DNA of 64,000 nt from Cloeon dipterum (Eukaryota > Arthropoda > Insecta > Ephemeroptera > Baetidae), in the NCBI RefSeq assembly GCF_949628265.1, contig NC_088786.1, positions 26,185,681 through 26,249,680 on the forward strand, in the 5' to 3' direction. Position numbers and translations under genes: made by a program. This document shows, one piece after another, positions 6,844 through 57,600 of the stretch (position 1 is its first letter; each line of letters begins with the position of its first letter). The notes under the pieces were generated by a model. That model did not search any database. It was not told the origin of the DNA and worked only from the letters and a program-made list of their open reading frames with translations.

Positions 6844-7150
6844 AACAAACAGAACACAAGAAGTGTTAGTCAACTCGAGTGAAGGTCAGAAATATATAAA
6901 CCAAATGAGGTAGAGTCTAATAGTTCATACAAATCAAAGGCTGATTTGTGGAAACGTTTAATTTTTAACATTATTACACCAACACAGAAGAGTTACAACA
7001 GCTGCGAAAATTAATGGTGTCGAAAAAAATCAAAAGTACTGCTGCTGAAAATAAAGAGGCACTAGGAATGTCCAAAGATATTCCTTCCTGAAGTGTGTTC
7101 CTCAAGCGGTTTCTTATCTTTTGCAACAGTCAGTTTGGAGATGGATTCTC

Positions 7151-7736
7151 TTAATCCTGTAAGCGAAAAAATATCATTAGACCAAGAAAAATCCTGTTGT
7201 AAAATGAGAAATTTGAAACTTGACACGTGCAAAAAGAAAAAGAGTTGACACCATACCGATTTTTTGGCAGATGGGGCTTCTCCTTTACTGGCTTCATCAA
7301 AGTTTGACTTCAACTCCGGCACAAAGTCATCATCTTCACCTTCAGCGGGGCGACTTTGGTTTGCGCGCTGAGCGTTAATGGACGTGGCTAGACGTCTCAA
7401 CTGACTCATACTGTCAGGGCCAAGCTGGCTGAAAATGCCTGGCAGCATGTCCGTGATTTGCCTTTCGTCGGCGCGTCCAGTGATAGCGAATGTGTTTGCG
7501 CCACCAGCAGCCTGCGTTTTGGGGTTGTTAAAGTGCAGAACCGTGCCATCGTCCTTGAACATGTTAACTTCCTCGATGCCAGGGATGGGGTTCACGTTGA
7601 GCTTCTTCAAACAGCTCTGCAATTTCTTATCGTCGGTCTCAGCAGTGGCGTGGACAACCTTCTTCTTGCGGCGAGGGGTGCCCTTTCCGCCTATGCGCAC
7701 CTGCGCCTGTAGCTTCCTCAGCTTTTCCTCATTCAT
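7151..7736 (-). CDS. BTF3: BTF3 / nascent polypeptide-associated complex subunit beta
   Basis: Beta subunit of the ribosome-bound NAC heterodimer, which shields nascent chains and prevents mistargeting to the ER; the Drosophila homologue is bicaudal. Exons on the minus strand are 7736-7257 and 7156-7151, giving 161 residues, the usual length of the short BTF3 form. The start [20 protein letters not shown] is the family N-terminus, including the basic RRKKK ribosome-binding stretch. It is followed by the NAC domain ([41 protein letters not shown]) and an acidic tail ending in FDEAS. An upstream in-frame ATG at 7754 lies beyond an acceptor (cccacag) ending at 7741, so it is intronic and a 5' UTR intron is implied. 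The last exon adds only Asp plus stop (GATTAA). Confidence 0.95.
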
Positions 7737-7742
7737 GGTACT

Positions 7743-8538
7743 GTGGGAAAGCAAGAATTGTTAATATGTGATGGGAGACAGGTTGGCGTTTTGGGCGCGA
7801 TTCGCCCAAAACAAGGAAGTGAACGCTCAATGTCACGCACGGAGGCAGGTGCGCCGCAAGGGCGGCCCGAATTCGTACTTCAAACGAGAAACGACTCGTT
7901 TTTCGACGTGATAACTTACTTAAAGTGTACTTTGTTTAATAAGGATTGCGTAGATTAAAGATTCGGCGACTCGCGCGGAGGGTTTAAGCGATATTTAGCT
8001 GCGAAACCGGCTAATTACGGACTGCAGTTTGTCTATCACCCATGAGGCGAAAGAAGGAACAGCCAAAAAATGACTGTCGGGAAGCGGGAAGAGGGAAGGT
8101 GGAGGCGCGAATGTTCAAACTTTAAATAATAACATTCTCCAATTCGATTCAAATTCTGCAAGTAATACTGAAACCTTATAGATGGCACTGTTTGACGAGA
8201 CGTTTTATCAGTAAAGGATTATGGATGACATTACGAGATTTGAACACTAAATTTTATTTTCATCAATTGTTTCGATTTTCTTTGTTGTTTGTATCTACAA
8301 AATTTCTCATTTATGCGAAAGTTTTAAAAGTTCTTTTGTTATTAAGCCCTAAAATCTGAAAGATAACTGTTTTACATTTAAGATCGTCGACTCCTTAGTG
8401 CACAACCTTATTTTGCAGTTAATGCTAGCAGTACTGCTGGCGGTGTTGTTGATGTAATTTCGTATAAACCGTACAGCTGGTAGAGAATGAAGAACGTTTG
8501 AGACTGCTTTCGACAAACCTGCAAATCACACGTTTAAA
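7743..8538. promoter_or_regulatory. divergent promoter region between BTF3 and NPL4
   Basis: About 800 bp separate the BTF3 start codon (minus) from the NPL4 start codon (plus). The region must hold both 5' UTRs, at least one BTF3 UTR intron and both promoters. It is locally GC-richer at 7790-7880 and 7960-8110. I could not place a TATA box or initiator with confidence. Confidence 0.45.
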
Positions 8539-27700: not shown

Positions 27701-30700
27701 ATTCTAAATTAAAATGCGCTACTCAAACTAAAGTGCCAGTTGGCCGGCCGGCCGGCTAGCTACTACTTTGTTGAGCAATCGCAAAACTACGGCCACTGCT
27801 GTCAAGTTGAGTGGTTAATTGTGAGCTTTTGTTGAACCATCACTAGACCAGTATGAATCGAGCGTTATTATATTAAAGAAAATCTCAAAAGATGTTATAT
27901 TTCATAAAAAAATTATTCATCTGGTTTGCCAACATCGTTAACTCGAGCGTGCGAAAAGATAGAAAACAAGCGTGCCTTTGTCTTGAGTGAGAAAATAATC
28001 TAAGAACCTTGATATTACTGGAATTTTCTCACAGGAGCGCCAATTTATTCAAAACTGATGCAAAACCTGCGTTTAAACAAAGTAAAACTCTTTTAAAAAC
28101 TTTTTGATTTGTCACACCGTGTCACTTTTCGACAATATGCGTGAAAAAAATCGGCAAGAGAGTAAAACCAGGAAATCAAGTTATATTGCATTTTTTGCGC
28201 TTGATGAGCATAAAGCATAATTTTTTCTAGTGTGCGCCAGGCGGAAAACAAACAAAAAAACAAATTTCTCGAGAGAATCTTGAGACTGCGCGAAGCGAAT
28301 GAATTGAAACTGCAAGCGAGCAAACATAAGCACGGCTAATCTGCACTTGATTCAATTACGAGCAAAATGCCACTCGAATTTTCTACAGAATCGAGACCTT
28401 CAGTCTGCACGAGGCCTTAGGGAGCGCATTATCTGCAAAGAATTGTGCTCACATCCATAATTACGCGAGTCATGCTTGGACGTCCCGATTTTTTTCAGAG
28501 ATCAGACATGTCGGAAGTGCAAATTCGAGTAGTACAAAGTGTGCGGCCGAGATGATTAACGATTGCACAAAGGAAGCAGCTAATTACCACTAAATACGCT
28601 TTTATTCAAGACGGCCAGACTTGATTTCAATTCGCACACCTCTAAAGTGGGAGTAATTAAATAAACCGGCAGTCAGTCAGAGTCGGTCGTGACTTGTGAA
28701 TGATGTGCTAGTGAGTTTAACGTGGGGTGCGAGTTTAATTGAATTTTATTCACTGCGAAGCCTTGAAAGCATATTATTAACCAGCCTATTCAAGTAACCA
28801 ATGTTCAATTTTATATGCTAAATTGTTACAAAACCTGCTGGAAATTTTAAAGACTAAAGAAAAATATTTTTTTTGCAATTCAAATAAATTGGAAACAAAC
28901 ACACCAGGAAGAAAAATTAATCATAATTTATTGCTGCTTTTAATGTAAATCGAATACATCAAACTCGCCGAAAAAGACTTTATACCCCTCGTGATTAACG
29001 ATGTGTTAGTACTAACAGGCAAAATCGTGTCTTAATAAAGACCAACAATAAACGCGTGTTTGATCGGCTCATTTGAAGAATGGCACGATATCAATTGCAT
29101 TCCGCATAAACCGAAGAAAAATCAGCGCCGCACTTGCGTCACTGAACCTGAATCTGGCTCGCGGACTGACAATGAAATGCTCCACTCACGCGATCGAGGA
29201 GCGCGCTCGCTTTGTGAGAATCTCAGGCTCGCACATCCTGATCGCGCACAGACGCTGCAATTTACCCAATTTACGAGCGAAAATGCACGCGGACGAGAAG
29301 ACACCGTTTTATTGGTTTGCTGACATTGAGCAAGCCGGCAGCCGAAAACAAAACTCGTCTATTTTTAAATGTGCCGCCGGCGGATCACGACTTGGAATTT
29401 TTGCATCTTTCCAGACTAAATTGAGCCGACGTGAATGCATCGTCTGTGCGCTAACACCCACGCCGTCTGGTCTCAGTACAGGAAACCCCCCGCAGTTTTG
29501 CCTTTTTGATTACAGAACAGCGAAATCTAACTCCAGGGAAATTTCTGTTTTAAGGAGCATCTGCAGAAAATTCTTAAATTGCAATGCGCTAAATAAATTA
29601 ATAAAAATTGGGCTTGCATGAGCTAGCAACCAATGCCACATTTTTTAGCTCGTAATACGAATTTTGACCATCTTTTCTATAATGAGGTACCAATATAGTT
29701 TTTTCTCTTCTTGAGTAGACGGCAAACATAACTATTTTTAATTGCGTTGTATTAGGGAAAGGTTTTCATTATTTAGATTTTTTTTGAACAATATAAAATT
29801 AAAAAAAGGTTTTCTCCAACATAACTTGAATCCGCATGTGGTATATATTTTATGCAAATTAATTTTATTCAAAGGCCATTTGCGGCTTTTTAGATACAGA
29901 AGCTGCCTGACACGAAGTTGGGATTCCACGCGTCCGTCATCCGCGGTTTACAACGACCGCGTGCACAAAGCACAAGTTTCAATTAGCAATAATAAACAGC
30001 CGAGTTTGTGTGCTATAAATAACACAGAAAACGAGAAAAGCTATTTCTGTTTAAGATTGCGATATGATACATTGAGCTTTTTTCAATGTCAAAAGGAGAT
30101 GTCATTATTATTCCGGATTTGAGACAAAAGATGGTTCAAATTTTGTCAGGCTGAAATATTTCTCTTCTTGCGCTTCGTTAGTGCACGCGTCGAGTGAATC
30201 CGGCACCAGATTTTGCGGCTGCATCACGCTCGACTGGGGCTGAAACCTATACAGACTCGGGTCTGAAGAAAATCGCGTTGCTCATATTCAATCCTTGTTC
30301 GGCAGCCACTTGTTCACCTTGCCAGAGTGCCAGCCGATAGAAATTCGGCCGTTCAGGGGAACTACACGGGTGTGGCAGTAGTCGTGCATTCCGGCGCACT
30401 TGCATCCATTTGAGGCGCAGATCTTTAATGTTGGGCGAGAGAGACAGACGCCCTCGGGCGCGATTTTCGCGCGAGCACATCCTCATTCCTCACAAAAACT
30501 TGTTTGTTTAAATTCGGCATTTTCTCGAACGACAACTCCCATGCGCCACACAAACTTTTTGGACCAAAGCCTGAATCCGATAGCTGTTTTGAAACCCGAC
30601 GCTCGCGCAGGTGCGGCTTAGCATGCAACAGATCCGTCTCTCTAATGACCGTGAATTGTTTCGTTCGCGGATCTAGTGCACATTAGTGCACGGTGTCGTA

Positions 30701-33700
30701 TTAGTGGAAACACACATTGCGGTGACGGTTATGCCAGTTTATTGTCATCGCAGTCGCTCATTTCCTGATTAACGAGTTACTACACGTTAATCCAGTGGGT
30801 ATTGTCAAGCAGAGAAAAATTGCAAACTTGATGCAAATAATATGAAAATCGTGGGACGAAAAATCTGCTTCCAACTTACATATTTGCCAATATCATAAAT
30901 GGTCTTGGGGCAATTAACACTTACATGCAAACAAACGACTGAAGCAAAGTACATTCACATTTCAACAAGCAACGAAATTTTATTTCATTTTTTGTTTCTA
31001 GGAGAAGGGCACCGAATGGTACTACATTCCACGTCCATCTCTGTCTTCGCGGGCATCGAGTCGTCGCGATTCCGAGGACAACTCGGACAAACATAGCTGG
31101 AGCAACACTTCCAGGCACTCTAGTCTCGGCTACTCGACGCACCCGGGGGTACATGGCAACGGCGGCGCCTCCTCGTCTTCCACCTCGTCAGCCAGTTCGC
31201 AGGTGATTTAACATTTTTTGAACACATCAAGAGCGGATTTGCAGCAAGGACACCAGCTTTTGATCTCAATTTAAAGGCCCCGATCACCGTGGCACTTGTA
31301 CTATACGAATTTGTATATAATGGACACTCAGATCGTGCGATTCCGCGTCCTTTAAATCATACTACTTGTCTCACACAATGCAAGGAAATCGCTGCCGGTG
31401 ACTTGATGGTAATTAGCTCTCGGAGATTATCTCACTCGCCGCTGGTGTAGCAATGCAAAAATTATTTTCACGCCTTTGTAGTTTCATTTTCATTACTGTA
31501 AATGACTGGCGCATGTAAAACTGAAACCATGTTGTGTTTCGTTCCTTGCAATAAATTTCGAGCTAAAAGGTGAGAGGACAGCATATTTACGATCGCGGAA
31601 AAACATTGTTTTGTCCTTACGACCTTTCAAAGGGCGGTGGGTACAATATTCCTCTTACAGTCATGATATCAATGTATTAAAAACGGTTGCCAGTTCCATT
31701 TTTGGTGAAGATAAGTGAACAAGATTCAAGCACTAATGGTTTTTAATTGCGATGCGAAGGTCAAGTGCGTTAAGCACCAATTTAGCTGTACGAATTTTTG
31801 CACTTTTGAGCTGACAGATCCGGTTCATCACAAGTTTTTACGACCCTTCATTTATACTTTCTGCGGCACCACGTTTTCCAAATTTTCATGCAAATTCCTC
31901 TTGATTCACTAAGCATAATTATGATCAGAGTTTAATTTTAAATGGCGTATTATGTTACAGCTAAGCGGCAACAGCGGTCATCCCTTAGTAACTGCGCCCA
32001 CGTGGCTGCCCCCTCATCCCCCAGCACTGATCGTCAAGGACGAAATTCACAAGCAGGTGAGACCACGTCCTTTGCAAAAGCGAATCATCACGCCCTGGCT
32101 ACGACAATAATTGACATCTTTATGGCTTGTTTTCCTTCCACGCGGCAATTAGCGAGAAGCACAACAGTGCAACTGATGCATTTGTTCGTTACCAAGGCCA
32201 ATTTTAATTTTGGCTTCCGAATAAATACTTTTCGGCTAACACCTGTCAATGCCGGTAAAAAAACGTCCCGCCTATTAAGCAACCGCTTAGAGGTTGAGAA
32301 ACAAAATTATCAACTCTTAAAACCTAACTTTTATGTTTGATAAATTGCTAAAAATTTGGATTTTGTTGCAGGACGTGGAATCAGGTGGCGAAATCGGAAC
32401 CATCAGCAAAAGATGCGATGGCGACAGTATTTCGTTGGCCTCCTCAACGCACTTCACCATGATCGGGGGTGTCAGCGTCAAGGGGCGAAGAAGAAGCCGC
32501 TGCTGCAGCCAATCTCATCGCATCACTGTTCTCGTTCTTACCATGAGTTTCATTTTCCTACTAGGCATCACTATCGCATGCATCCTTATGGAAAGTGAGT
32601 ATCATGAATTTATTTTTTTTTTAAATTCGTTAGTGCCTCAACTTGACCTAATATGGCTTGGATTTGTTAGCGTCTATGTTAGTGATGAAAAGAATCGGTA
32701 TTAAACTTGACCCAGCTCATATTTTGGTTCAGCTACAAAAACGTTTTTAGATTTCTGGTGTTTCACGGAAATTGTGAAATATTCGTTTAAAAGCATGTTT
32801 AAATCATGATTAAACAGCCTTTAGCAGCAATAACATGTACAAGACGTCTTCTTGACAGTTCAATTGCAAGAGGAATAATATAAAATAAAAAGTTCATCAG
32901 TTGGACGCTTGAGCTCATTGTAAGTGGTATGCCATAAATAAAAAACAGCGGCACGCCAATTTTTTCTCACATTCACACCCAGCTCAAGGCAAACCTCACA
33001 TCTTGTGAGTCAATTTACATAAATTATTTATCCATTTGGACCACGTGCAGCACATAATGAAAAATGCAATTTTGAACGGTGTCGCTTATTTTGACATTTT
33101 TGTTTCAGTGCGAGTTAAGGAATACAACGCGCGGTGATATGATTCCGAGTGGCTGTTTGGACAAAGAGTGCTGTGGAGTTTAAGCTCGATATTCTGAGTG
33201 CTAAAGCTATAATGCTGCTTCAACTGAAATGTGCTGTAATATTTATTTTGAATTGATACTGTTAAGATAATTTATATAAAATAATAGATGCGACTGCAAA
33301 ATTAAAAATAATGCATTGTATTCAAATCAATTTAAATCTTTTGTTCTCATTTTTAAACCCTCGTACGACTGTGCAATACCAAAAAAAAATTATTTATCTT
33401 GGTAAGTTATATTTATTAAAAAAAATATAAAAGACTTACATTTCATTGATTTAAAATTATCTAGGTGGACTTGTAAAAATTTGCAAAAGCAGTCGGACCA
33501 ACTCAGCTTTTGATTGCCCCTTTCTGCGCTCTTTCATCGTGTTTCACAACTTATTCTTTTGGTAAAATCATAATGCGTAAAAAATTATCTACGTTCCCCC
33601 TCTCTTTAGGACCATGCTTTCCTCAAAAATGCAACTTGGTGCATTGAAATATTCACAATCCCTTTTACAACGACCTTGCAGCATGCAGGTAAAAAACAGA

Positions 33701-36700
33701 GCTCCGCCGCCGCGGGAGGCAAATTTGGAAAAAATTAGTCCAATAAAAGAGGTCAACCTTAAAATGAACTGGCAGAGCATGATTTGCCACAAGAAAAAAT
33801 ATTTTTGTTGATCCTAAGCTGGATCAAGGACAGCTGAGCCCGTGCGTTAGCTGACAAATTCATAGGCGCGCCGGTCGACCTATTGAAATGGTTTCTGATG
33901 AAAGGACGAGGAAGTGATGCGACTGGTTTGAACCAGGCACAGAGAAATTAATTAATTAGGAGAAAAAGCCAGCGCTCTCGACCTAAGGCTATGACATACC
34001 CTGGGTTGCTTCACTCGACACGCCGACCTTGGGGCGGCCGCACGAGGAAAACACCAGGTAGGTATAATTTGGGTCCATCCTACGCGGCCTTCAGTGACCG
34101 ACGACGCCGCCGGACCGGCCGGGGGTCACCCAACACCCATAGCACCAACTGCATTCCGCGGTCGAGACCGAGCAAAGCTGCGCGCCGTGTCGCCCACAAC
34201 AATAAGACACGAGATTTATTAATATGCGTCGAGCGTCACGCCAAAGCATTAGAGTGACCCCTGTTCATTGTGCGTTCAAGAGCCAAAAACTTCGTGACAC
34301 GCATTAATTTAATCAATAAAGGGTTTCACGGAGGACATATCCGCAAAATTGAATCATATGTTGAATAAAATTTAAAATTATTACATGGTTAAACTTTGCG
34401 CGGTAAATAATTCAGAATGGTCAGCTGATAGTGGAATATTGAGAGGGTTAAATAATACATTCTGGTATTTTACAGCGACTGTTTAAGCCCCGCAGGCCAT
34501 ATATGCAGCACTTTACCACTTTACCTATAAAACAAAATTCAAAACCAAAGTTTTAGCTGCAGAAAATTCTGAACCAGCAATCGTTAAAAACCACAGGCAA
34601 AACTCAATGCTGAGCAAAATTTATAAGAGGAGCCTTGTAACAAAATCTTGTCAACCCCACCACTCACCGTTCCCGTGATTCGTTGATTTTAAATTTCAAA
34701 AATTTCCTGCGTTTAATATATTTAAATTTTTTTTAAAAATATAACCATTGTTACTGCATACTTAGTCAGCGCTATGGACAAATTTTCTACAACATTTTAG
34801 GAGATTTCGCAACATTGGTCTGAGTATATAGTTTGCCTTATTACTTAAAAATAAATCCTGCATTTATTTAAATATTGAAAGTTCCTTGTAAAACCTATTT
34901 TGATGTTGCGATAAAAAATATATTGCTGCTTTATGAGTTCTCTTAAGCCCCCAGCAGAATGTTTTTACTCTTCAATGTTATGAACAGTTCTCACAATAAT
35001 TAACTCCAATATCCATAATTAAAATCCAATTTGCGGCTAGCAGAGTTATCATTACCGCACTAATTCCATTTTCCCATAACCTTACCTCAGTAGTAATTTT
35101 TTGACTAGAGTTTAAGTTCTCGCGAAAGTAAGAAAACTTAATCATATTCATTATTGTTTGTGCATCATATGTGTAATAAGTTATAGAAAGGGCTGTACTC
35201 ACCTCTATCTCCTGAAGGGTCTGCGTCCAGGAAAAGTTTTCAAAGTCAAAACCATTGCCTGCGTTAGGCACCAATTTGCCCTTGTCTTTGTCCTGCTCTT
35301 CGTCATCACTCTTTGACTCTTCTTCTTTCTTGACATCATCTTTGGGCGCTTCTTTCTTCTGCTTTTCCTGAACAAAAAAGAGCTATTTGTAACAGCACAC
35401 CATGCAGAGGTTTCAATGGTCGATGAGTTTGCCGTGCATGCAAAATTGCAGAGGAAGATTACAAAAATGCAGGATGTTTTGAAATCAGATGCTGAATAGA
35501 ATTCACGCGGTTCATTTCAGAATAACGCTTTGCAATACCTATTTTCCTTGCAGTCAAATCAAGAAAGTAAAAATGCAACTAAAAAAGCCCTATACGCTCA
35601 GCTAGAGAATGTGGCATTAGTAAGTGAATTAAAACCTGCTCGATTTCCTTCTGAATTCTCTCAGCCTCTTCATCAGTTAGCTCTGTGACAGTGGCACCCT
35701 TCTTTGATTCTTCTTCTTCCTCCTCCTTCTTCTTTTTGGCTCTTTCATGGCGCTTTCTCTCTTCCTCAGCAATTTCTGCCTTCTTCTTCCTTCTCTGCTC
35801 CTCTGCACCCTTGGCATGTTTATTAAATGCGTCTAGCACCATCTAGAGGAGCGAACACAATTTTGCTTTTTCACGGGGACTCAAATAAAATCTAGAAGTT
35901 TCTTAAGTGCTTCAGAGCTGATTTTTCTTTAATCAAAAGAGAGTACGAACCTGTTCTGCCTGCCCATCTGGGGCTCCTGTGTAAAAGTCCGTCTTGCGCA
36001 ACAGGAAACCAAAGACAGTGTCCAACATCTAGCAATGCAAAATAGATTTTAGAAGTATGTAAAAGATGAACAAATATTGAAGTTATTATTTCATAAAAAA
36101 TATATAAAATTGAAACAATTCCCAAACTGGAAGTGTAAATTTTCTACTGGTTTGTATTGTACGCGGTCACGATACAAGAAATTTAAAAATTTGTGCAAGG
36201 AGAACAATCACAGAATCAATTCGAGCACACTGGTTTGGCTAATCCCAAGCCTCGTCTGCAAACATGTCTAATTAAATACTAAACCCACCAGTCACCCGGC
36301 ACATGTGCACACAGACTGACGAGCGTGACTTATTCACACCCTCTATCGATAGACTCTGTTTTTGTTTCCTCTAAAAAATATTTTAAAATTTCTTTTCAAC
36401 CCATGCAAAGAATTTTTGGGACGTCTTCCCGGCCCTGGTCGCCTGTGTAAGTACATATGTATATTTTGGACTTTCAACATCTTATTATGTACATGCATAA
36501 TTTTGTATATTCTAGCTTGCTCAAATCTTTGAAGTTCGTCATGATCCGAAGGTGTAACATTGTTTCCAAAATATGGACAAACTCTTTAACTTTTAGCATT
36601 TAAATTAATCCTTAAAACTATCTTTTCAAAAACTGACTATTTCCAAAATTTATCACTCCTAGAGAAAACAAAGAAGAAGCCGGATGAAGTTTGTAATACC

Positions 36701-36774
36701 TCTGGAACTCCTCCTTCCATTTGTTGTGCCATAGAAAAGAGCAGAGCATCGAAATTTTCTTGGTTTGCACTCAT
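12706..36774 (-). CDS. nudC: NUDC (nuclear migration protein nudC), CS-domain co-chaperone
   Basis: Dynein-associated Hsp90 co-chaperone needed for nuclear migration and mitosis. Minus-strand exons: 36774-36700, 36028-35951, 35842-35636, 35367-35203, 13336-13145, 13023-12821, 12757-12706. Phases agree and give 323 residues (human 331). Seen in order: an N-terminal NudC helix region ([26 protein letters not shown]). A Lys/Glu-rich coiled coil (about 60-145). The CS domain (about 160-245; [48 protein letters not shown]). The conserved C-terminus ([52 protein letters not shown]). Intron 4 (13337-35202) spans 21,866 bp and splits the CS domain coding sequence. It encloses an antisense gene. Intron 3 consists mostly of copied GET1 sequence. 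Confidence 0.95.
21815..21847. other. GC-rich inverted repeat (11-bp stem)
   Basis: gggcgtgggct and agcccgcgccc pair over 11 positions (one G-T pair) around an 11-nt loop. It lies in the NUDC giant intron within AT-rich surroundings. It may be a structured RNA element or chance. Confidence 0.35.
23960..24000 (+). promoter_or_regulatory. E-box and CRE-like sites before the nested gene
   Basis: CACGTG (23976-23981, inside GCCCACGTGAC) and TGACGTAA (23987-23994) lie about 180-200 bp before the nested gene start codon, in a GC-rich island within an AT-rich intron. These are classic bHLH and CREB/ATF core sites. Their placement suggests a promoter for the nested gene; binding is inferred only. 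Confidence 0.4.
24174..33137 (+). CDS. unrecognised single-pass, tail-anchored-like membrane protein nested in NUDC intron
   Basis: I do not recognise this gene. Exons joined in phase: 24174-24269, 31002-31202, 31961-32056, 32372-32594, 33109-33137. All have consensus splice sites and encode 214 residues. The start is the first ATG in its open frame (context acaATGg). Residues 1-130 are hydrophilic: [20 protein letters not shown] (about 37-56), then a Ser/Gly-rich low-complexity stretch (about 75-105) and a Pro-rich segment (TWLPPHPP). A basic, cysteine-containing juxtamembrane stretch (RRRSRCCSQ, 170-178) precedes a single hydrophobic helix (about 182-204). Only ten residues ([10 protein letters not shown]) follow. 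The positive-inside rule predicts a cytosolic N-terminus, i.e. tail-anchored topology; the paired cysteines could be palmitoylated. It is transcribed opposite to NUDC, whose intron 4 contains it entirely. Intron 1 spans 6.7 kb, so further alternative exons are possible. Confidence 0.72.
24270..31001. other. intron 1 of the nested gene, no supported gene
   Basis: 6.7 kb of AT-rich sequence with no recognisable exon. A short GGCC tandem (about 27742-27755) and several open frames without family motifs (for example 25543-26010 minus, 29073-29621 plus) are present. It also belongs to NUDC intron 4 on the other strand. Confidence 0.5.
33138..35202. other. NUDC intron 4 between nested gene and NUDC exon 4
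   Basis: Contains the 3' UTR of the nested gene, then AT-rich sequence interrupted by a GC-rich island at about 33985-34200. That island has a consensus donor (CCAG|gtaggt, GT at 34058). No protein family is recognisable in it. A small perfect hairpin (gatcc-taagct-ggatc) lies near 33811-33826. Confidence 0.4.
35411..35634 (+). pseudogene. truncated copy of GET1 exon 2-intron 2-exon 3
   Basis: Closely resembles GET1 at about 37347-37574, including part of exon 2, the intron and exon 3. It is a DNA-level duplication, not a processed copy. Shared runs include atggtcgatgagtttgcc, aaaattgcagaggaagatta, tattttccttgcag and the exon 3 donor gtaagtgaa. It is broken: the exon 2 donor (gctg|gtaaat) reads gatgctgaat and runs into a stop, and exon 3 has an inserted base. 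It fills most of NUDC intron 3 (35368-35635, opposite strand) and ends within about 2 nt of NUDC exon 3. Confidence 0.92.
36344..36351. promoter_or_regulatory. TATCGATA palindrome (DRE-like)
   Basis: A perfect TATCGATA lies in NUDC intron 1, about 350 nt downstream of the end of exon 1. In Drosophila this is the core of the DNA-replication-related element bound by DREF/BEAF-32 in housekeeping promoters. A single 8-mer could occur by chance. Confidence 0.25.
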
Positions 36775-37120
36775 TTTGCTTGAATGATTTCAAAAACTGG
36801 TTGAACTTTGCGCTAAATTGTTGTTTTGGTTTGAGAACCAAAAGATCGGAATGTCAACGTGATTCAGCGCAGGGCGGCCAGGACGCATTCATTTGTTTTA
36901 TTTGTTTGCCGCCTACAGCTGGATTTGAGGGCGGGTACCAGTTTGTTATCAAGCAGTCAGTAGTTGTTGCGCTTTAAACTCAAGTTGCAGGAGAACAAAA
37001 CATTAAATCCAGTCAAATTACATTATCATAGATCAAGGACTTTTATAAAGTTATATGTATGTATTAATAGTAAGCCTATTTGATGAGTTATTCAACCTGC
37101 TACTTGTATAATTGAAAAAA
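36775..37120. promoter_or_regulatory. bidirectional promoter region of NUDC and GET1
   Basis: Only 346 bp separate the two divergent start codons, so both 5' UTRs and both promoters must lie here. No TATA box is evident at a convincing position on either strand. Confidence 0.5.
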
Positions 37121-37803
37121 ATGGACAGCTATTTTCTGCTTGTTCGCCTGATTATCTTTAGTCTCTGCAGTGCGTTTTTGCCCGCTCTGATAAAATGGGT
37201 ATGCTATAATATCTAATATAACTTTCTGCAAATCGCTATTCAACGCTGAAAATAATTTCAGGTCGTTGACACAAGGCAAAGAAAATCAGAGATAGAAAAG
37301 CAACTGCTAGCCGAGCTGAAATCAATGAAGATGGAATTAATGGGAATTTCCATGGTCGATGAGTTTGCCCGGCATGCAAAATTGCAGAGGAAGATTACAA
37401 AAATGCAGGATGATTTGAAATCAGCTGGTAAATAGCATTCACACAGTTCATATCAGAATTATGTTATGTAATACCACCTATTTTCCTTGCAGCCAACTCA
37501 AGAATGTTAAATGCAACTAAAAATAAGGCCCTATACACTCAGCTAGTGAACGCGGCACTAGTAAGTGAAGTAAATTCGTCTGATGATAGTTTTTATAATA
37601 GCTTTAAATTGCAGGGATTGTATTTGATTTACTTGGTTTGGAACTACAGATATGTGCCTGTTTTAACACTATCAGAGGGCTGGCTTTACCCTATTGATGG
37701 TCTCCTCAGCTGGCCAACAGGTGAAAAAGGTGCAATTTCAGTTGCAGCTTGGCTTGCTTTGTCCAGGACAAGTATAAAAGTTTTCTCCAGTATGAAGGCT
37801 TAA
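37121..37803 (+). CDS. GET1: GET1/WRB, tail-anchored protein insertion receptor
   Basis: ER-membrane receptor subunit (WRB in vertebrates) that docks the TRC40/GET3-tail-anchored protein complex and, with CAML/GET2, inserts the substrate. Exons 37121-37198, 37262-37427, 37493-37560, 37615-37803 join in phase to 166 residues (human 174). Seen: a first transmembrane helix (about 4-24), then a charged coiled coil (about 27-90). The coiled coil carries the family signature [20 protein letters not shown], the GET3-binding claw. A second helix (GLYLIYLVWNYRYVPV), the loop EGWLYPIDGLLSWPTG and a third helix (about 145-160) follow. Exon 2 to exon 3 is the source of the broken copy at 35411-35634. LANCL ends tail-to-tail 253 bp downstream. 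Confidence 0.94.
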
Positions 37804-37809
37804 AATAAA
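37804..37809 (+). other. putative poly(A) signal abutting the GET1 stop codon
   Basis: AATAAA follows directly on the TAA stop codon. If used, the 3' UTR would be only about 20-30 nt. Confidence 0.4.
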
Positions 37810-37854
37810 GGAATACACATTCATAAAACTAATTTTTTAATATCCCTAAATCCA

Positions 37855-37860
37855 TTTATT
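37855..37860 (-). other. putative poly(A) signal for LANCL
   Basis: AATAAA on the minus strand about 197 nt past the LANCL stop codon. It lies 46 bp from the GET1 signal on the other strand, so the two genes would terminate almost face to face. Confidence 0.4.
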
Positions 37861-38056
37861 TTGTTATTTGATAACAATGGTATCGAGATTTGAGACTCTC
37901 AGTCTTGACAAGAAGTACAATCACCCAAGAAAGTAAAAATATCCATACTTTGTTCTGGTTACATTATAAAACCTTAATGTGTTATTGTTATAATCATATC
38001 TCTTAAGATGGAAAGTTTGGCAAGGTTATTGCTGAAAATAAGCCATGTAAAATGAA

Positions 38057-39937
38057 TTAGAATATATCAGAGAATGGGAATGAAGCTGTGTCTGGATAAG
38101 CGAGATCATTCAAGAAGCAGCATGTTCCGGCTAGTCCTTCATACAGGCTGAATGGGCAATCTGGCTTCAACAAATATGGCTTGAACTCTTCAGAATCGAT
38201 GAATCTGGCAAATGCATGAGCCCGCTGCAAGTAGTGTTGCTCTCCTGTCAGACGGAACAGAAGCAAAAAGACATAGCCACTACCAGCTACGCCATGGCAA
38301 ATTCCTACAAACCAAATACATAAATTATCAAAATTATTAAACAAGATTTGAAACTTACCAGGCCCCTTAGTGAGCAAGCCTTTGTTCCATGTGACTTCAG
38401 CACACTTAACGCATGATTGCAGGTATTTCTCATCATTCCAAGTTTGATAGGCTTTGGCCATTAGGTAGACAACACCTAGACATTTCCAGTAATGAGTTAG
38501 GAAATAAATAATATTGTCCGGTTTTGATTACTCTCTGAAAGGTAACGGGTATTTTAATCAAAATTTGAGAGCGCAGTTGTTTGTCTTACAAATAGATTCC
38601 AATTTGATAAAAAAAATCAAATATATGATTTTGGGGTTTACAAAGGCTTATCCAAATTAAGACAGAGGTCTCAGCCAGCCAATCTATGCCACACTAGCCG
38701 GCTAATTTAAGATCACGTAATCAGCCCGCCCAATACCAAAGAAAAAAAATATTCTCTTGGCCTAAAGTGTCAGTAAGCACTATCAAACTTCACTATTAAA
38801 ATTGTATCAACCGCACCAACCGCTCGAAAAAAAATGCTCAGCCGCCGAGCTGAAATTTCGTTTGAGCAAGGCAGCCAGCCGCTGTCTCAAAATTAAACAG
38901 CTGAGACCTACAGTTAAAATATTTTGAACTCGCATACCTGGAGCGCCATGGCACCAATGGACCAGTTCATCAGACTCGGATCTAGAAGCAGCTCCGGTTT
39001 CTGATTGGTCACAGGGAAAATTTCCAGAAGGAGTTTGCAGAGAAAGAAGATAGTCGACGCTGGCTTGGATATCTTTTTCGACTGAAGGGTCACTGCTGCT
39101 GATGAAGCTTGGGACGCTCAGCAGGGCTTGCAGAATAGTGCACAAGCCATGTGCTGCGCCTAATTAACTTAATTAATAATTGACTTTAAACAATGCTTGA
39201 GTCAACTTGCCAAAATACTCGGTGTTGTAGTAAGCAAACATCAGTGGGCAAGGGCTGCGATGATGGCGTGCATAGTGTCGACCAGACTCGACAATGGTGG
39301 TGCACACGGCCATCAGGTCTTTGTCAGCGATCACAGGTTTCTGCAGAGCTTTCCGGAGCCACAGTACACCCATAAGGTAACCAGCTCTGCCGACAAAGAG
39401 CTCATCACTTCCGCAGGTCAGGAAATTCGTCTTTTTGCAATTTGCCAATCCCTGGGCATAGTCCCTCAGGAAACCTTCATCTGAAAAGGGGAGTTTTTCA
39501 GTAAAGAAATATAACACTAGAAAACTAAACTGTAAAATGTTTATTTTAAATTCAAGTCTGAGAATTTTACCATTGTACATTGCGGCAGCAACAGCATTGA
39601 TTCCTGCATTTCCAAGAATGAACGCTGTGTCGTCCTTTGAACTGCCATCTTTGTTTCGGATCGCCCCAAGCGCAGCTGCCAGATATTCCTTGCCTTTGGT
39701 AACCAGGGCTTCCCTGCTGTCTTGAAAAAGCGGCGACTTGCTGAGGTGATAACAGAGATAGCCTATCCCTGCTATGCCAACATAGATACCGCCCTCCGTG
39801 TCCTTTGGGTCCGGCGGTTGTTTCTGGATGATAGCTTCATATTTCTCAATGACACTGCACTTGAGCAAGCTGCGGTTCAGCACGCTGTCCTCCCCAATTG
39901 GAATATTGTTTGGCAAATACCGTGATTGGGAACTCAT
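38057..39937 (-). CDS. LANCL: LanC-like protein (LANCL family)
   Basis: Eukaryotic LanC-like zinc protein. Mammalian LANCLs bind glutathione and add it to dehydrated Ser/Thr in damaged proteins. Minus-strand exons: 39937-39571, 39480-39211, 39159-38938, 38475-38359, 38304-38057. Phases agree and give 407 residues (human LANCL1 399). The seven-helix-repeat toroid signatures are visible: GGIYVGIAGIGYL, GNAGINAVAAAMY, GRAGYLMGVLWLRKA, YFGAAHGL, HWCHGAPG, ICHGVAGSGYVFL and SLYEGLAGTCCFLNDL. The three zinc ligands expected from LANCL1 are present as Cys282 (WCHG) and Cys328-His329 (ICHG). The exon 2/exon 3 intron begins with GC (GC-AG). Which paralogue (LANCL1, 2 or 3) it represents cannot be settled by eye. 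The FLASH-like gene ends 168 bp upstream on the same strand. Confidence 0.95.
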
Positions 39938-40105
39938 ACTAACGTCTTCTATAACTGAAGGAGACTAAAAGCCGCGCTATCTCTAGAGCTGACAAGGAAA
40001 ATAACCAAAATATCGCCACACCCTCTTGGCAAACAAATAAGGAAATCGCGCTAAAATTCAAAAGTTCTTGATACGTTTCTGCCGCAAGGTTTAATTTTAA
40101 AATTG

Positions 40106-43100
40106 TCAATCAGAACAAACTTCTCCATCTTCATGATCTATACTAGCGTCAGTTCTGTTTGAATGTCCAGCAGCTCTTCTCTTTTCAGAGTGTAATTCAA
40201 GTCTTGAATTAGCAACTGCCCCTCGACTGTCCAATGAATCCCTGCTTGTATTATGTTCCAATCGGATTTCTCGATATCCACTTTGAATCTGGGACTTCTG
40301 ATTTCTCCCATCAGGATTAGGCAACATTTGAGACCTAAAATATTTTATATTGAAATCGCAATATAATGGAATACGTTTGAAAACGATAATTTTTTACTGA
40401 AAAGTTCTTCAAAATACCTGGTTTCTAAATTATCGGTGCGACATGGTCTTCCAGGAGAAAAATCTCTGCGTCTGTATTTTTCTTCAGGTCTCCTTTCACT
40501 GAATTTCCAAGAGCTACCTGCAGCCCTTGGCGACGGCGACCGAGAGTCTTTGATGTACCTCCGATTTTCCTCCCTTGGTTGATGAGAGCTTGCATATTCC
40601 TGATGCCTCCTGCTTTCATAAGGCGAAATAGACCTTTGATTTGGAGAAGTCTTTCTGTAGTAAGGTCCTGGAGACCTTCGACTAGATGAAAAATATCCTG
40701 CTAGCTCTGGAGAACGACTCCTTCTATAAGTAAAATAATAAATATGTGAACACTTAATTAATTAACAAAATAACTATTTTGAAAAAACGTTTGTGGATTT
40801 GATAGTTGAATTTCTTTGGTCAAATCACCTCCTTTGTCTGTAGTCTCTGTCATCAGGTAGTCTTCTCCTGTCCCTATATTCAGGTGATCTTGCTCTATCT
40901 TCAAAATATTTCCTTCTTTCACTGTCGTTGGGGGACCTGCGTCGCTCACGGTCTTCAAGTTCCCACTTTCTTTCCCGCTCCCTCCTTGATTCCCTCTCCA
41001 CAGACCTCCTTCGCTCCCTCTCAGGTGATCTTCTCCTGTCCCTTTCGAGAGGCCTCCTTCGGTCTTCAGGAGTTCGCCTCCTGATTCTTTCAGGTGACGC
41101 CATTCTCAAAGTTTCTGGAGATTTCCTATGGTCAACATTTAATACTTTGAGGTGCCTTTCAGGCGATTTACGCCCCTTCTTCGAGCTGCTGCTAGGTCTC
41201 TCCTGCTCGGGTTTCGCTTTAACCCCCAATTGAGTCTGCTTTTCCTGTTTCATAACGGGCGAATAAACTCCCAGGTCTTTCCGCATTTCCTCTGACACGT
41301 CTATGTCTAACTGGTCGTCGCGTTCTTTGCATGGTGAGTCGCCAAACATTTCGGACATGATGAAGTTAAGCTTCTTCATTTTTGAGCTTGGTGTAAGACA
41401 TTTCAACGATACAGACAACTTTTCTAGATGAGGTTTCATTGCATTGGGAGTGGAAGTGGTCATGGATGGCTGATAAGAAACAAACGGCGAAGGTGATCTG
41501 GACATTTCCGATCCAGAGGTGTAGTGGAGGTGGAAGTCCTGAGAGGTGCCGCTGTCATTGGATTTCCGCCCAGTGCTTGGGAGTGAAGCAGGTGCAAACT
41601 CTATTTGGTGCTTAGGAGTTGCCATACTTATTACAGGCGACATATTTGACATTGAAGGAACCAACTCCCTTTCTTTAGGTTTAGCTGTTTTCTTTTTCAA
41701 TCTTGGAGGGGTTAGTTTCTTGGATTTAGGCACTTCATTCGATTTTTGCTCAGGTGAATTGGGCATTTTGACTGGTGAGATAATTGAAGACAGGTGATTT
41801 TCCAAGGCTGCTTGAAGAGGGACGCAAACCATTTTCTTAGGTGGCTCATCTACACTTGTATCATTATTCTCTTCAGTACTTGTGGTTCCAGCTGATCCAC
41901 ACTTTATCTTCAGTACCCTTTTCCTTTTGAAAGGAAATCTGGAAGCTGGAGTCACTGCTTTAGGCGTTTCACTCGCGGCACTCAAGCGAGACATATCAAT
42001 CATGAGCCGAGTTGAATTGGCAGAGGTAATTGAGGAATTGAATGAATGGTTTGGTGACTGTGGCTTTGTAAGTGCAAACGTGGTTGTGGCACTTGGCGAT
42101 TCTGGTGTAACGTTTTCTTGAGGAGGGCCTGTGCAGACTGGAGTTGCATGCAAAGGGCTTAGTAGATTTGGCACTATATTCTTTAGAGGGGTGGGCATAA
42201 TACTGTTGACGGCTTCATTCAGCTCTTTCCGCGCACTGTCATCACTGGTAGCACTAGTAACAGGCGAGATTTCAATCTGTGGAAAAATTTGGTTCGGCAA
42301 GTGCTTGCCCGGCGTTTGAGGGGGACCAGCAAACTCAGGGGAAAGAGACTTTTCTGTGCTGCTAAAAACTTCAGGCTGTGGTTTTGACAACATTTCAGAC
42401 AAACGCCCGTCTAGGAGAAATTTTCCTGGTGTTACAGGATTCTCATTGGGAGACAAAACTGGCACAGCAGCTTTCTTTTTCTTCTTTTTGTCAGGCAAGT
42501 TCATTCTTTCTTTTCCAGACTCCAGAAAAGATTTGAAAAGGTCACCGTGCTGGGAGTCACCATCTGAATCATAATAACTACTGTTTACCCTTGGTGAAAG
42601 CTTTTTTATTTCCTTGGCGAGAGAAATCGGTGAACTGCCTTCTACTTCTTTGTGGATACGCTCAGCTCTCAAAATCCTTGACTCATTCGAGTTTTCTTTT
42701 GTTGAAGAAGCGTGCGATTCAAGTGAAGTGTCAGAATGTCGCTCCACAGTTTCTTGTTTCTCCAAGTTCTCGACATTCTCAGATGGCTGTATCTTTCTCG
42801 AGTCATTTGGAGAAACATCAACATCACAAGATTTGTTAAGTACCAGCACTTGAGATTTAGTTTCTGTTGACGGTTCAGCAGTTCTGTCACTTTCACGCGT
42901 TCCCAAATTTTCCACTTTTTCTGGAGGACTGCACTGTTGAACTTTTTTAGAAGCACTTTCAGCAATGGGTGCATCCCTATGAGCCACTAGCACTTGAGGT
43001 TTTTCCACTGGCTGTTCGGATTTATTCGATTTATTTGCAGTCTCACATGGTCTAGGTGAGGAATGACTCTCACTCTCCTTTCTCTTAGAAGCCATCCTAG

Positions 43101-44520
43101 TAGATCTCCTCCTTTCACCTTTAGGTACCGAAGTAGCACTGGCAGCAGGTTTCTTACGCACTTCAGAAGAATCATTTTTTGAAGCACGTGATTTGTTACT
43201 CCCTGACGTTTTCCTACTCCTTACACGTGCACTTGAGCGCGATGGCCTCTTTTCTTCAAGTTTTTGTGAAGGTCTCTCACTTATCTTTATGACTGTTGAT
43301 ATTTTGTCAGCTGTAATGGATGCTGCCTCTGCTACCTTTGATTGCTGCGATCTGGATCTAGACATATCTTCGTTTTGGGTTTGACTGCTGCTCAATCTTA
43401 CATAATCACCTCTTCTAAACAAGATTGAATCTCTCCTGTGAAACAGTTCGTTAATTTTTCTCAAGTTTATAGAAACACAACAACTTACTCCCTAGTAAGA
43501 TTAGCAAGCTCGTTTTTATTAAAATCAAGCTCGGCAACAGCTGTTGCATAGAGAACAGAAATATTTCTATTCAGAGAAGCTTCCCTTTTGGAAAGCTTTT
43601 TGTTTTCTGTCTTGAGTAACGTATTTTCGATTTCAAGCTCCTCAACCCTTTTCTTCAAATCCGAGTTTTCTAATTCCAACTAAAACAGAGACAAACGCCG
43701 TTAAATATAATAATGGTGGCTGACATAGAAAACGATTCAGGTTGCCTTCCTTACAAAAATGATGTAGTTCATATTTTTTGGGGAGTCAGTACAAATGTAA
43801 ATAAAATTTCAATTATTATTGTGCATTTTTTTAAACTGGATCAATACAGGGCAACATTTGAAAATTATTTGATTTGTTGGATACAGTCAGATGCAGCAGT
43901 TGATCGTTGAAAAATTTGTTATATAATTTGTAATAAAAAAATTTCTACAGTCAATATTCAAAATTTCTCCAAATTAAAATTTACAGTGCTTTCTTGGCAG
44001 ATTTCGATTCCTCTCGTTGAGATATATCCAACGGTGTTCTACTATATTATGCCACATTTTGGGGAAACTTTGTTGTGAAATAAAATTAGATTTAAAGTAA
44101 ACACCCAAGGAGACAGTCCACACCATTTGAAAAGGATTACTAACTTTGCAGCCACTTTTCTAAAAAATTTAGTGCTAAAGGTCCATAATTAGGGCTTCAA
44201 CTAAATCCTATAGCAACAAGGATTTTCCAGGTTTAGCAGTACATTTTTTCAATTCTCTTTAACTATACATATCATACAATATTATGGTAGATTCATATTT
44301 GCACCAAAGTAAAGATGCAACTAAATTTGGTGCGAATAGGATGAAGAGAACCCTCTGCGTTCTCACCTAATTCGAAATTGGTCTAAACTGTACCTGCATG
44401 TTTATGTATGTTATGTACAACTAACTACTAACAACTAGTGATGTTACATACCTCTTTTATATTCCGTTCAGATCGAAAATCATCTAAGTTTGCATAAATA
44501 TCAATCTCTTCGTCGGCCAT
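40106..44520 (-). CDS. FLASH/CASP8AP2-like nuclear protein
   Basis: Minus-strand exons 44520-44452, 43679-43489, 43435-40829, 40723-40418, 40334-40106 join in phase to 1133 residues. N-terminus: EIDIYANLDDF resembles the FLASH LDIYAGLD element. A leucine-rich coiled coil (about 24-86) ends NISVLYATAVAELDFNKNEL, aligning with the FLASH [20 protein letters not shown] region used for dimerisation and Lsm11 binding in histone pre-mRNA processing. The centre is Ser/Pro/Lys-rich and disordered with many SP/TP sites. Residues about 840-956 are an Arg/Glu/Asp mixed-charge tract with SPER repeats, typical of nuclear-speckle proteins. RS-like motifs continue to the acidic end (HEDGEVCSD). I see no C-terminal SANT-like domain as in vertebrate FLASH. 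The alternative is another RS-rich nuclear protein; identity rests on the N-terminal 90 residues. Head-to-head with MED27. Confidence 0.7.
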
Positions 44521-54606: not shown

Positions 54607-57600
54607 TCACTTTGAATCAGGGGGCAAAACCTGTCCATTGCTCAGCGGGTGGTCGACTACAACAGGCAGATGCGTCAGTGGGATGATGGGCACGGGAAGG
54701 GTTGGCGTCATTGGAACACTATGGTGGTGACTGCTGCCTAAGCCTGGCCGAGTGGGCGACAACAGTTCCTGCTCAAAAAACAAAGTAAGCGCCGCTCTCA
54801 GCACTGGTATCTGACAACAAACCTTTCTCTCTCGGTCAGAGTGGCGCCCCGGGCGAAACGCCTCTAGAAGTTGTTCCACTCTCTCTTCGGTCGGTCCCCA
54901 TTTCTGGAAGCCAGATTCGTTTTGAAGCCACACCAGCACCAGGGCGTGCGAGCTTTTGATGATTGCCTCACTCCTGCAAGAGCTGTTTTGTGACCGCGTA
55001 CTTAGTTGGTGTAATTGATGCAGTACCTTTGTATGCAGTGCTGAAGACCGTGAATAGCTTCATGTTCAAAAGCAGGCACAACAATTTGTCTTCTTCCAAA
55101 TCTTGACTTGTTGAGGGCCTCAAGGGCCGACGTTGGAGCTGGTGCTTGCGAATCAGGACCAGCAGGGGCGCTCACCTCTCTGCGCTCAGGAAGTGCCACA
55201 ATAAACGACAAAGGTTCCGGCGAGCCAGCAAGAAGTCTTTCAATGTGGCCTAGGGAAGCAAGCAGAAGCTCCTCGCAGGCTGGTGCGTTCACTTCAAAAG
55301 ACCCGCTTACTGGCCAAAACTCAAGAAAAGGACTGAAAGATGACATCGCATATTTAAATTAATAGGCCTAACGTGGATGGTGGGCACCTACCCTCTAGAG
55401 CCGAAAAAACCATCGGTGTCAGCGAATGGAGAGCAATACTGCCTGAAATAGCAATTCACAGGGGATGCAAAGCACTCAAACGTGACGCCGAAGCAGCTTT
55501 GCATGCACTCAAAGACCGCGGTTGGCAAAGAAGAGTGACTCGAGTTGGCTCCACCTCCCCCAGGAAGATTTTCGCCCATGAAGGATGAGTACCTCTTCAG
55601 TAAACACCACACTCTCGGCAGGAACATTTCATATTTCTTATCGTCGTAACAACTGTGCTTGTAAAGTAACTCCTGAAAGTGATACTCAGCAATAGCAACG
55701 TGACATTCCCAGGCACAGACGAGTCTTACCAATTTTTGAAGGTGCATGATGTTTATGGAAACTCCATCTCCTTTCCACCTCAATACAGCTTGTTCAGCTC
55801 TGTCGGGCAGGTACTCGATTGCCGGAAGTCGTGCACCTGGACTAGCCAGCTGCACAGGGTAGCACCACACCTTCCTCCGCATGTGGGCTGGTGGAAGTGG
55901 CGGAACCTCAGGTACTGTCCGGGCAAAGGATCATACACAAATCGCCAAAATTAATGCTTGTAAAACTAACTCAGCACATTGTTGGCTTTCAATAGTTCCT
56001 CATTCTTTTCGCGCACCTTGCGCGCGTAATCACAAGACAGAGTGTATATTTTCAGGCATATTCCTTCTACAGAACGTTTCACTGCCTCGGCCAAGTGTGG
56101 TTGGCATTGGGACTGCAAGTTCAAAAATTACTGTCAATTCCTGCGAATATTAGCTTAACACACCTTCAAGTGCGAGAGCCGCTCCTGGAAATCGTCGTAA
56201 GTGGCTCCTATGGTTTTGCGCAGCCAGTTAAATGTTTCCTCCACGTTCCACTTCACTATCTTCCTGCTCTCAGGCGACACGGTCCGCGACTCTATCAGCT
56301 TTTTGGCAGCTTCAGCATATTTGGATAATTGTTTCCTCGCATCGCCTGTGAATTTAGGCTTGACCAGACGTATTGGAATATCGTCCATGATGGCGGCAAA
56401 CATTGCTGGGGAAACCTCGGGCGCGCACCTGCTGGGTAGCAGCGTGTCCGTTCCGGTATCAACAGTTTTCCTCTCCATCAGCCAGCGATTGAACGACTCT
56501 CTAGGCGCATCGATAGCTGTAATTTGTGATTTATTTAATAGCAATTGACAAATGAGCAGCGCAGACAGTTCTAACCTTCTCTCGAGTGACAAAGATCTTG
56601 GTAGCTTTGTCTCAGTTTTGCCACAAAATTCGCCCTCATCGCTTCCGTCTCAGGGTGTGGTTGAGGCAACTCGGACAAAGATCGTTCCAAAATGATCACA
56701 TTTGTACTGACTTCCAAATCCCACGGACCGCTACAAATAGTGAAATAGCAACTAGATGAGCAAAAGATGGCTCAAATTAGGATAGACTTACGTCAATATA
56801 ATTCTCTTCGCTTGCGGATTCGCTTCCTCAGATGCTCTTCGTTTGGTGCCAGACGATATGCCGAGAGGATCTGTGATGGGGTCAAACCTCTGCTGAGGGT
56901 GAGGCGGCGGCGGTGGGGGCTTCAGGACCGGCGTCTCCCAAAGCGATTCATTGGTTAGCTTATTCCAGAAATAGGGCCTGTTTTCCCTTTTGCTCCAGCA
57001 CTGTCGCCAGCCAATGTTCATAAGCTCTGGTGTCAGGGGAGCCAAAATCGGTTCACCAATTGGGGCGCTACCCTCCTGAAAAACCCAAAACTATAGCTGG
57101 TATTAAATTTCAATCCAGGTAATTATGCTGGCAAATTAAAATGCTTTGTCTGAACTATTATTACAAAATTTTTAACAACGATTTTTAAGAACAGTTTGAA
57201 ATACTGAACAGTAATATACCGTACGTAAATATCTATAACTCTAAGCTGACATTTATCAAGAAGGAATGAATAATTTATTAAAAGCAATTATGCGTGCAAC
57301 ACTAAGCCTACAATCGTCTGTATAAATTTTTACAATTCTTTGCTGCTTCTCTTAAACTTATTCTTTTTGTTGAAAATTTCAAAATATGATACATCGTTCA
57401 CCACCAAGAGAAATATAATGTATCTAGATTAAATTTCTAATTAAGTCTTGTGACAACAACTATTTTCCTCCTCAACCTTCGCGCATTCTTACAGGCAAAG
57501 CGTGTTTTCCCCCCAATAAGAGCTTGGAAAATAAAACCATACCCCTTGAACTTGTCCTGGCATCAGAGGCATTGGCTCCGCAGTTGGTATCATGGGGGTT

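Follow-up and report, generated by a model that had tools for sequence, protein, structure and literature searches.

Most of the third intron of the NUDC gene of the mayfly Cloeon dipterum is a decayed copy of part of the gene next door, GET1. The most probable history, to which we give a probability of roughly two in three (0.68), is that the GET1 segment replaced part of, or inserted into, a NUDC intron 3 that already existed. Both genes lie in the window, by which is meant the whole stretch of DNA that was analysed (64,000 nt of contig NC_088786.1), and all positions are those of the window (Table 1). When the region 35300-35700 was compared with the window by blastn, the copy and its source aligned plus/plus, with 195 of 229 columns identical; 27 are mismatched and 7 contain gaps (253 bits, E 1e-69). 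An earlier note on this DNA had claimed that 35411-35634 copies GET1 37347-37574 and had called for an alignment or dot plot; the blastn comparison gave significant identity, and the claim proved correct to within a base. The match is 85% identical, sharp and limited to one segment. Aligning NUDC intron 3 with GET1 37000-37850 gave a local score of 288; the highest score among 500 Markov-shuffled versions of the intron was 31, and this rules out chance similarity as the source of the main match.

Table 1. Positions in the window of the NUDC and GET1 features discussed in the text.
Feature	Position	Strand	Basis
NUDC exon 4	35203-35367	-	frame, Pfam
NUDC intron 3 (268 nt, phase 0, GT...AG; predicted)	35368-35635	-	frame, junctions, alignment to human NudC
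3′ splice-site region of NUDC intron 3 (43 nt; candidate remnant of an older intron)	35368-35410	-	no second genomic match
Diverged, defective GET1 copy (part of exon 2, intron 2, exon 3, 14 nt of intron 3)	35411-35633	+	blastn and alignment
Donor GT of NUDC intron 3, immediately outside the copy	35634-35635	-	junction and donor analysis
NUDC exon 3	35636-35842	-	frame, Pfam
GET1 gene (four coding exons, intact 166-aa frame)	37121-37803	+	frame analysis, Pfam
Source segment in GET1	37347-37574	+	blastn and alignment

GET1 is intact, and its protein matches Pfam CHD5 (PF04420, presumably the GET1/WRB family) over residues 6-152 (E 3.6e-29). Because this match spans the copied exons, GET1 is the source. 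The copy takes in the 3′ half of GET1 exon 2, the whole of intron 2, the whole of exon 3 and the start of intron 3. Aligned segment by segment, it holds 81 of the 166 nt of exon 2 (37347-37427) with 5 mismatches, all 65 nt of intron 2 (37428-37492) with 11 mismatches and 3 gap columns, all 68 nt of exon 3 (37493-37560) with 10 mismatches and 4 gap columns, and intron 3 at 37561-37575 with 2 mismatches, one of which is the extra last base (the per-segment alignment extends one base beyond the blastn match, to 37575). Since GET1 intron 2 was retained, the copying took place at the level of DNA and not of RNA; a retrocopy, which would be without introns, is ruled out. The copy and its source are 1.94 kb apart and in direct orientation; the copy is sense with respect to GET1 and antisense with respect to NUDC, and the longest exact run between copy and source, 41 nt in exon 2, gives 21 common 21-mers.

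The GET1 segment matches at least two places in the 190-Mb assembly (the source and the copy), and among the matches listed for a 1.1-kb query spanning the GET1 gene there are only GET1 itself and the copy in the NUDC intron. Comparing the window with itself (word 11, dust on, E 1e-5) returned a sole other pair, of 43 bp. The suggestion that the duplication was local and unprocessed is borne out by the direct orientation, the distance of 1.94 kb, the retained GET1 intron and the two copies found, and it can safely be said that a local unprocessed gene-fragment duplication forms most of a neighbouring gene's intron. The copy is a real and tidy piece of local DNA copying; that the intron itself is new does not yet follow from it. 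The start codons of NUDC and GET1 are divergent and 346 bp apart (36775-37120), which suggests that the stretch between them is a shared promoter region.

The first four NUDC exons, on the minus strand, measure 75, 78, 207 and 165 nt, and introns 1-4 are all in phase 0. The predicted splice borders of intron 3 are CAG/GTTTTA ... GTTCAG/GAAAAG. They are supported by the predicted join of exons 3 and 4, which aligns without gaps to human NudC (PDB 7ndx_B, E 0.0021, query 49-74, junction at 69/70, with EIDQ/KK as the point aligned). Pfam finds CS (E 2.2e-16) and Nudc_N (E 1.7e-13) in the protein, both above the cut-off; NuDC (E 2.7e-6), with 28.2 bits, narrowly misses its own threshold of 30.2. 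The copy fills 223 of the 268 nt of the intron (83%) and stops 2 nt short of exon 3, in agreement with an earlier estimate of about 84% and about 2 nt; the source of 83% of NUDC intron 3 is certain. If the intron were retained, a premature stop would follow at codon 19.

Several other observations concern NUDC more widely. Intron 4 is 21,866 nt long (13337-35202, minus), compared with 671, 108 and 268 nt for introns 1, 2 and 3, and the C-terminal exons lie at about 13336-12709. A paralogue with an N-terminal NudC domain on contig C3, which we take to be NUDCD3-like, has no stretch alignable in the region of NUDC intron 3; a third, weaker Nudc_N match lies on contig C5. None of the 75 IMG/VR pattern matches encodes a relative. 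A 25-base TTAGG array had no match, and for COX1 there was just a weak fragment. The literature yielded no usable published map of NUDC exons and introns, and the available portions of PMC4578845 and PMC9881147 give no intron positions.

As a gene the copy is non-functional: it is partial, the GT of the GET1 intron-2 donor is lost, and exon 3 is frameshifted, with a 1-nt insertion and a 3-nt deletion. Mismatches amount to 5 of 81 ungapped columns in exon 2, 11 of 62 in intron 2 and 10 of 65 in exon 3. Eleven of the 15 mismatches in exons sit at codon positions 1 or 2 (exon 2, 4 of 5; exon 3, 7 of 10), where an unconstrained copy would be expected to have about two thirds of them; this pattern, together with the lost donor and the frameshift, therefore points to a copy that drifts while GET1 is constrained. 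The exon-2 part is less diverged than intron 2 and exon 3 taken together (5/81 versus 21/127 ungapped columns, Fisher p 0.03), and there is no significant difference between all exonic columns (15/146) and intron 2 (11/62; p 0.17). If intron 2 is presumed free of constraint in both GET1 and the copy, its Jukes-Cantor distance of 0.20 corresponds to about 0.1 per lineage. Neutral rates in insects are a few per 10^9 per year, and the copy would then be, very roughly, tens of millions of years old; it should be common to related species.

How ordinary such a duplication is in this genome was gauged from 20 ten-kb stretches of contigs C1 and C3 (200 kb). Direct repeats of at least 100 bp were present in three of the 20 (one pair in L011, 12 in L019 and one in L020), and L009, L021 and L023 held inverted repeats only. 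The four repeat pieces that were searched (one each from L011 and L020 and two from L019) had at least 40, 23, 146 and 47 matches in the genome; the remaining L019 pairs, which mostly overlap or adjoin the searched pieces, lay outside the search. No low-copy local direct duplication was shown among the 200 kb sampled. On this small sample, set beside a window selected for having one, a two-copy local gene-fragment duplication is not routine in the genome. The window also holds, by Pfam, a NAC domain gene (presumably BTF3-like), a LANC-like gene and a PCIF1 WW-domain family gene, at 7062-7760, 39173-39964 and 55388-55930 (minus). An 888-aa open frame at 40825-43491 (minus), rich by eye in Ser, Pro and charged residues, has no Pfam match at E 0.001.

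The part of the intron that bears most directly on its age is the 43 nt on the acceptor side. This stretch has what is by eye a pyrimidine-rich tract followed by AG and ends in CTCTTTTTTGTTCAG/G. No second match in the genome was found for 35350-35420, nor for a 32-mer from the 43-nt region with up to 3 mismatches allowed. Its similarity to window 30001-42000 is not significant (27 of 60 shuffles reach the score). When it was compared with both strands of GET1 and of the copy under three scoring schemes, the real score was reached by 218 to 964 of 1000 shuffles of the Markov kind and by 113 to 925 of 1000 of the mononucleotide kind; among 177 other pieces of the NUDC introns, used as a control, 54 did as well against the copy and 61 against GET1. 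A GET1 origin of the 43 nt is thus unsupported by the shuffles and by the 177 control pieces. Two short likenesses can be pointed to: an exact 8-nt direct repeat, TGCAGAGG, at 35403-35410 (touching the left edge of the copy) and 35447-35454 (inside it), and an 11 of 13 match between 35374-35386 in the 43 nt and 35581-35593 in the copy. The 8-nt repeat may be chance, or it may be a trace of the joining event. Such short look-alikes are no better than chance, but on their account a GET1 origin of the 43 nt retains a small chance; in that case the entire intron would derive from GET1, which would favour gain. With its pyrimidine tract and AG, and with neither significant GET1 similarity nor a second genomic match, the 43-nt stretch fits a surviving piece of an older intron.

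At the other end of the intron the donor lies at the duplication junction, as the earlier note had it, with the GT outside the copy and everything from +3 onward inside. None of the positions +3 to +6 (TTTA) agrees with the U1 consensus (0 of 4), which makes the intronic part of this donor the poorest match of the eight NUDC and GET1 donors scored (the last NUDC intron left out). Over all nine donor positions intron 3 scores 5 of 9, tied with NUDC introns 1 and 5 and GET1 intron 1. A weak +3 to +6 is just what would be expected if those positions were overwritten by the copy. The weak donor was accordingly rejected as proof of gain: overwriting explains it equally well, and the nine-position score is shared with three other introns.

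Taken together, these features would fit the following course of events. About 228 bp of GET1 would have been copied at the DNA level, in direct orientation and across 1.94 kb, into an existing NUDC intron 3. The copy would have overwritten the intron from +3, so that of the old sequence there remained the GT on the donor side and, on the acceptor side, about 43 nt that include the branch, pyrimidine and AG region. The event itself was likely one of two kinds: a double-strand break was repaired by template switching to the neighbouring gene, or 35634-37574 was duplicated in tandem and most of the left copy was then deleted. Afterwards the copy would have drifted as a dead antisense fragment that is removed with the intron. 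At the junction the base equivalent to GET1 37574 is joined directly to NUDC 35634, and template switching and duplication with deletion both yield this 37574/35634 junction. The flanks of the insert have no direct repeat longer than 6 nt in common (only two common 6-mers, not at the ends) and show no visible target-site duplication. The only inverted repeat of at least 8 nt in 35340-35670 has its arms at 35498 and 35652, away from the ends of the insert. If the insertion fell at random within an intron, an end point precisely 2 nt from the exon is a coincidence; gain makes it less of one. That no more than 45 nt of the supposed old intron survive also counts against replacement.

Several other histories were considered for the copy. 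Misjoining of GET1 reads into NUDC during assembly has next to no probability: the 27 mismatches and 7 gap columns are spread over all segments, and they also rule out an assembly duplicate. Elements of the Helitron or Pack type capture unspliced gene fragments, and one of these might have carried the GET1 piece into the intron. This is very improbable, given that further copies were not found in the genome, that the source is adjacent and that the insert has neither a direct repeat of more than 6 nt between its flanks nor an inverted repeat at its ends; transposon capture was rejected on the missing copies and end repeats. It is just as hard to credit that the copy was kept for a function, with 223 nt of antisense GET1 in the NUDC pre-mRNA allowing cross-regulation through double-stranded or small RNAs. 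The 41-nt exact run with its 21 common 21-mers would suit such a role, and so would the lower divergence of the exon-2 part noted above (p 0.03). However, constraint on GET1 alone predicts lower divergence in exons, the comparison of all exonic columns with intron 2 is not significant (p 0.17), the predicted structure of the intron is ordinary (z 1.37; 190 of 200 shuffled sequences fold equally well or better) and the antisense stretch sits in an intron expected to be short-lived.

The more serious rival is true intron gain. Here exons 3 and 4 would once have been one exon, a GET1 fragment and about 45 nt of filler would have entered at CAG/GA, and the inserted sequence would have been spliced from the start or soon after. 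A site of the form CAG/G is a typical proto-splice context, and gain would make sense of a copy that fills so much of the intron and comes within 2 nt of the exon. At most positions, however, old introns are commoner than new ones, and NUDC introns 1-4 are alike in phase, so that intron 3 is not conspicuous among them. In the available part of PMC2809761, new Drosophila introns have weaker splice sites at both ends and give a premature stop if retained. The weak intronic donor and the stop at codon 19 resemble these introns, but only the donor looks weak here, and over nine positions it is tied with three others. The flanks also have nothing longer than the two 6-mers in common, although this mark is not decisive, since repeats of at least 5 bp flank gained and conserved Drosophila introns similarly (19/77 and 26/100, as given in the portion of PMC3296678 at hand). 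What weighs most is the 43 nt with a good-looking acceptor and no identified source: gain must add this filler and have it supply a good 3′ splice site by chance, while replacement gets it free. The earlier note had proposed creation or wholesale replacement of the intron; replacement fits better, and creation is left unsupported by a 43-nt stretch that has neither significant GET1 similarity nor a second match. An outright birth of intron 3, through a break-repair insertion that took the adjacent divergent gene as its template, is therefore rather unlikely. If it were true, this would be a new intron with a known parental sequence 1.9 kb away, and few gained introns have a traceable source; the origin of intron sequence is a long-standing question. 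Relatives without the intron would make this a clear-cut instance of an intron born from the gene next door. Relatives with an unrelated intron would mean that the body was swapped while the 3′ splice site was kept and the donor cut back to its GT.

Among known routes to new introns, tandem genomic duplication of a segment with AGGT (PMC3443670, as far as its available text goes) has a local direct duplication in common with NUDC intron 3. It differs in that here the segment comes from another gene, GET1, and not from NUDC coding sequence, and in that the splice sites are not duplicated AGGT, both of them lying outside the copy. Intron gain by break repair, as the accessible parts of the literature describe it, is alike in an intron body from identifiable DNA, a weak donor and a premature stop if retained. 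It has repeats at the intron ends and an insert equal to the intron; NUDC intron 3 is without direct end repeats, and its insert accounts for 223 of 268 nt, with 43 nt unexplained. For template switching, the comparisons are alternative end joining and, reportedly, MMBIR. In the accessible text of PMC2895639, Drosophila end joining by pol theta produces insertions templated on flanking DNA, as short, imperfect repeats of 5-8 nt. The inserted sequence likewise comes from DNA near the break, whereas NUDC intron 3 has an insert of 223 nt from a source at a distance of 1.9 kb, and the event is old, with a mechanism read back from its product. An ordinary unprocessed pseudogene fragment is likewise unspliced, decayed and local; the GET1 copy differs from it in making up most of a neighbouring gene's intron.
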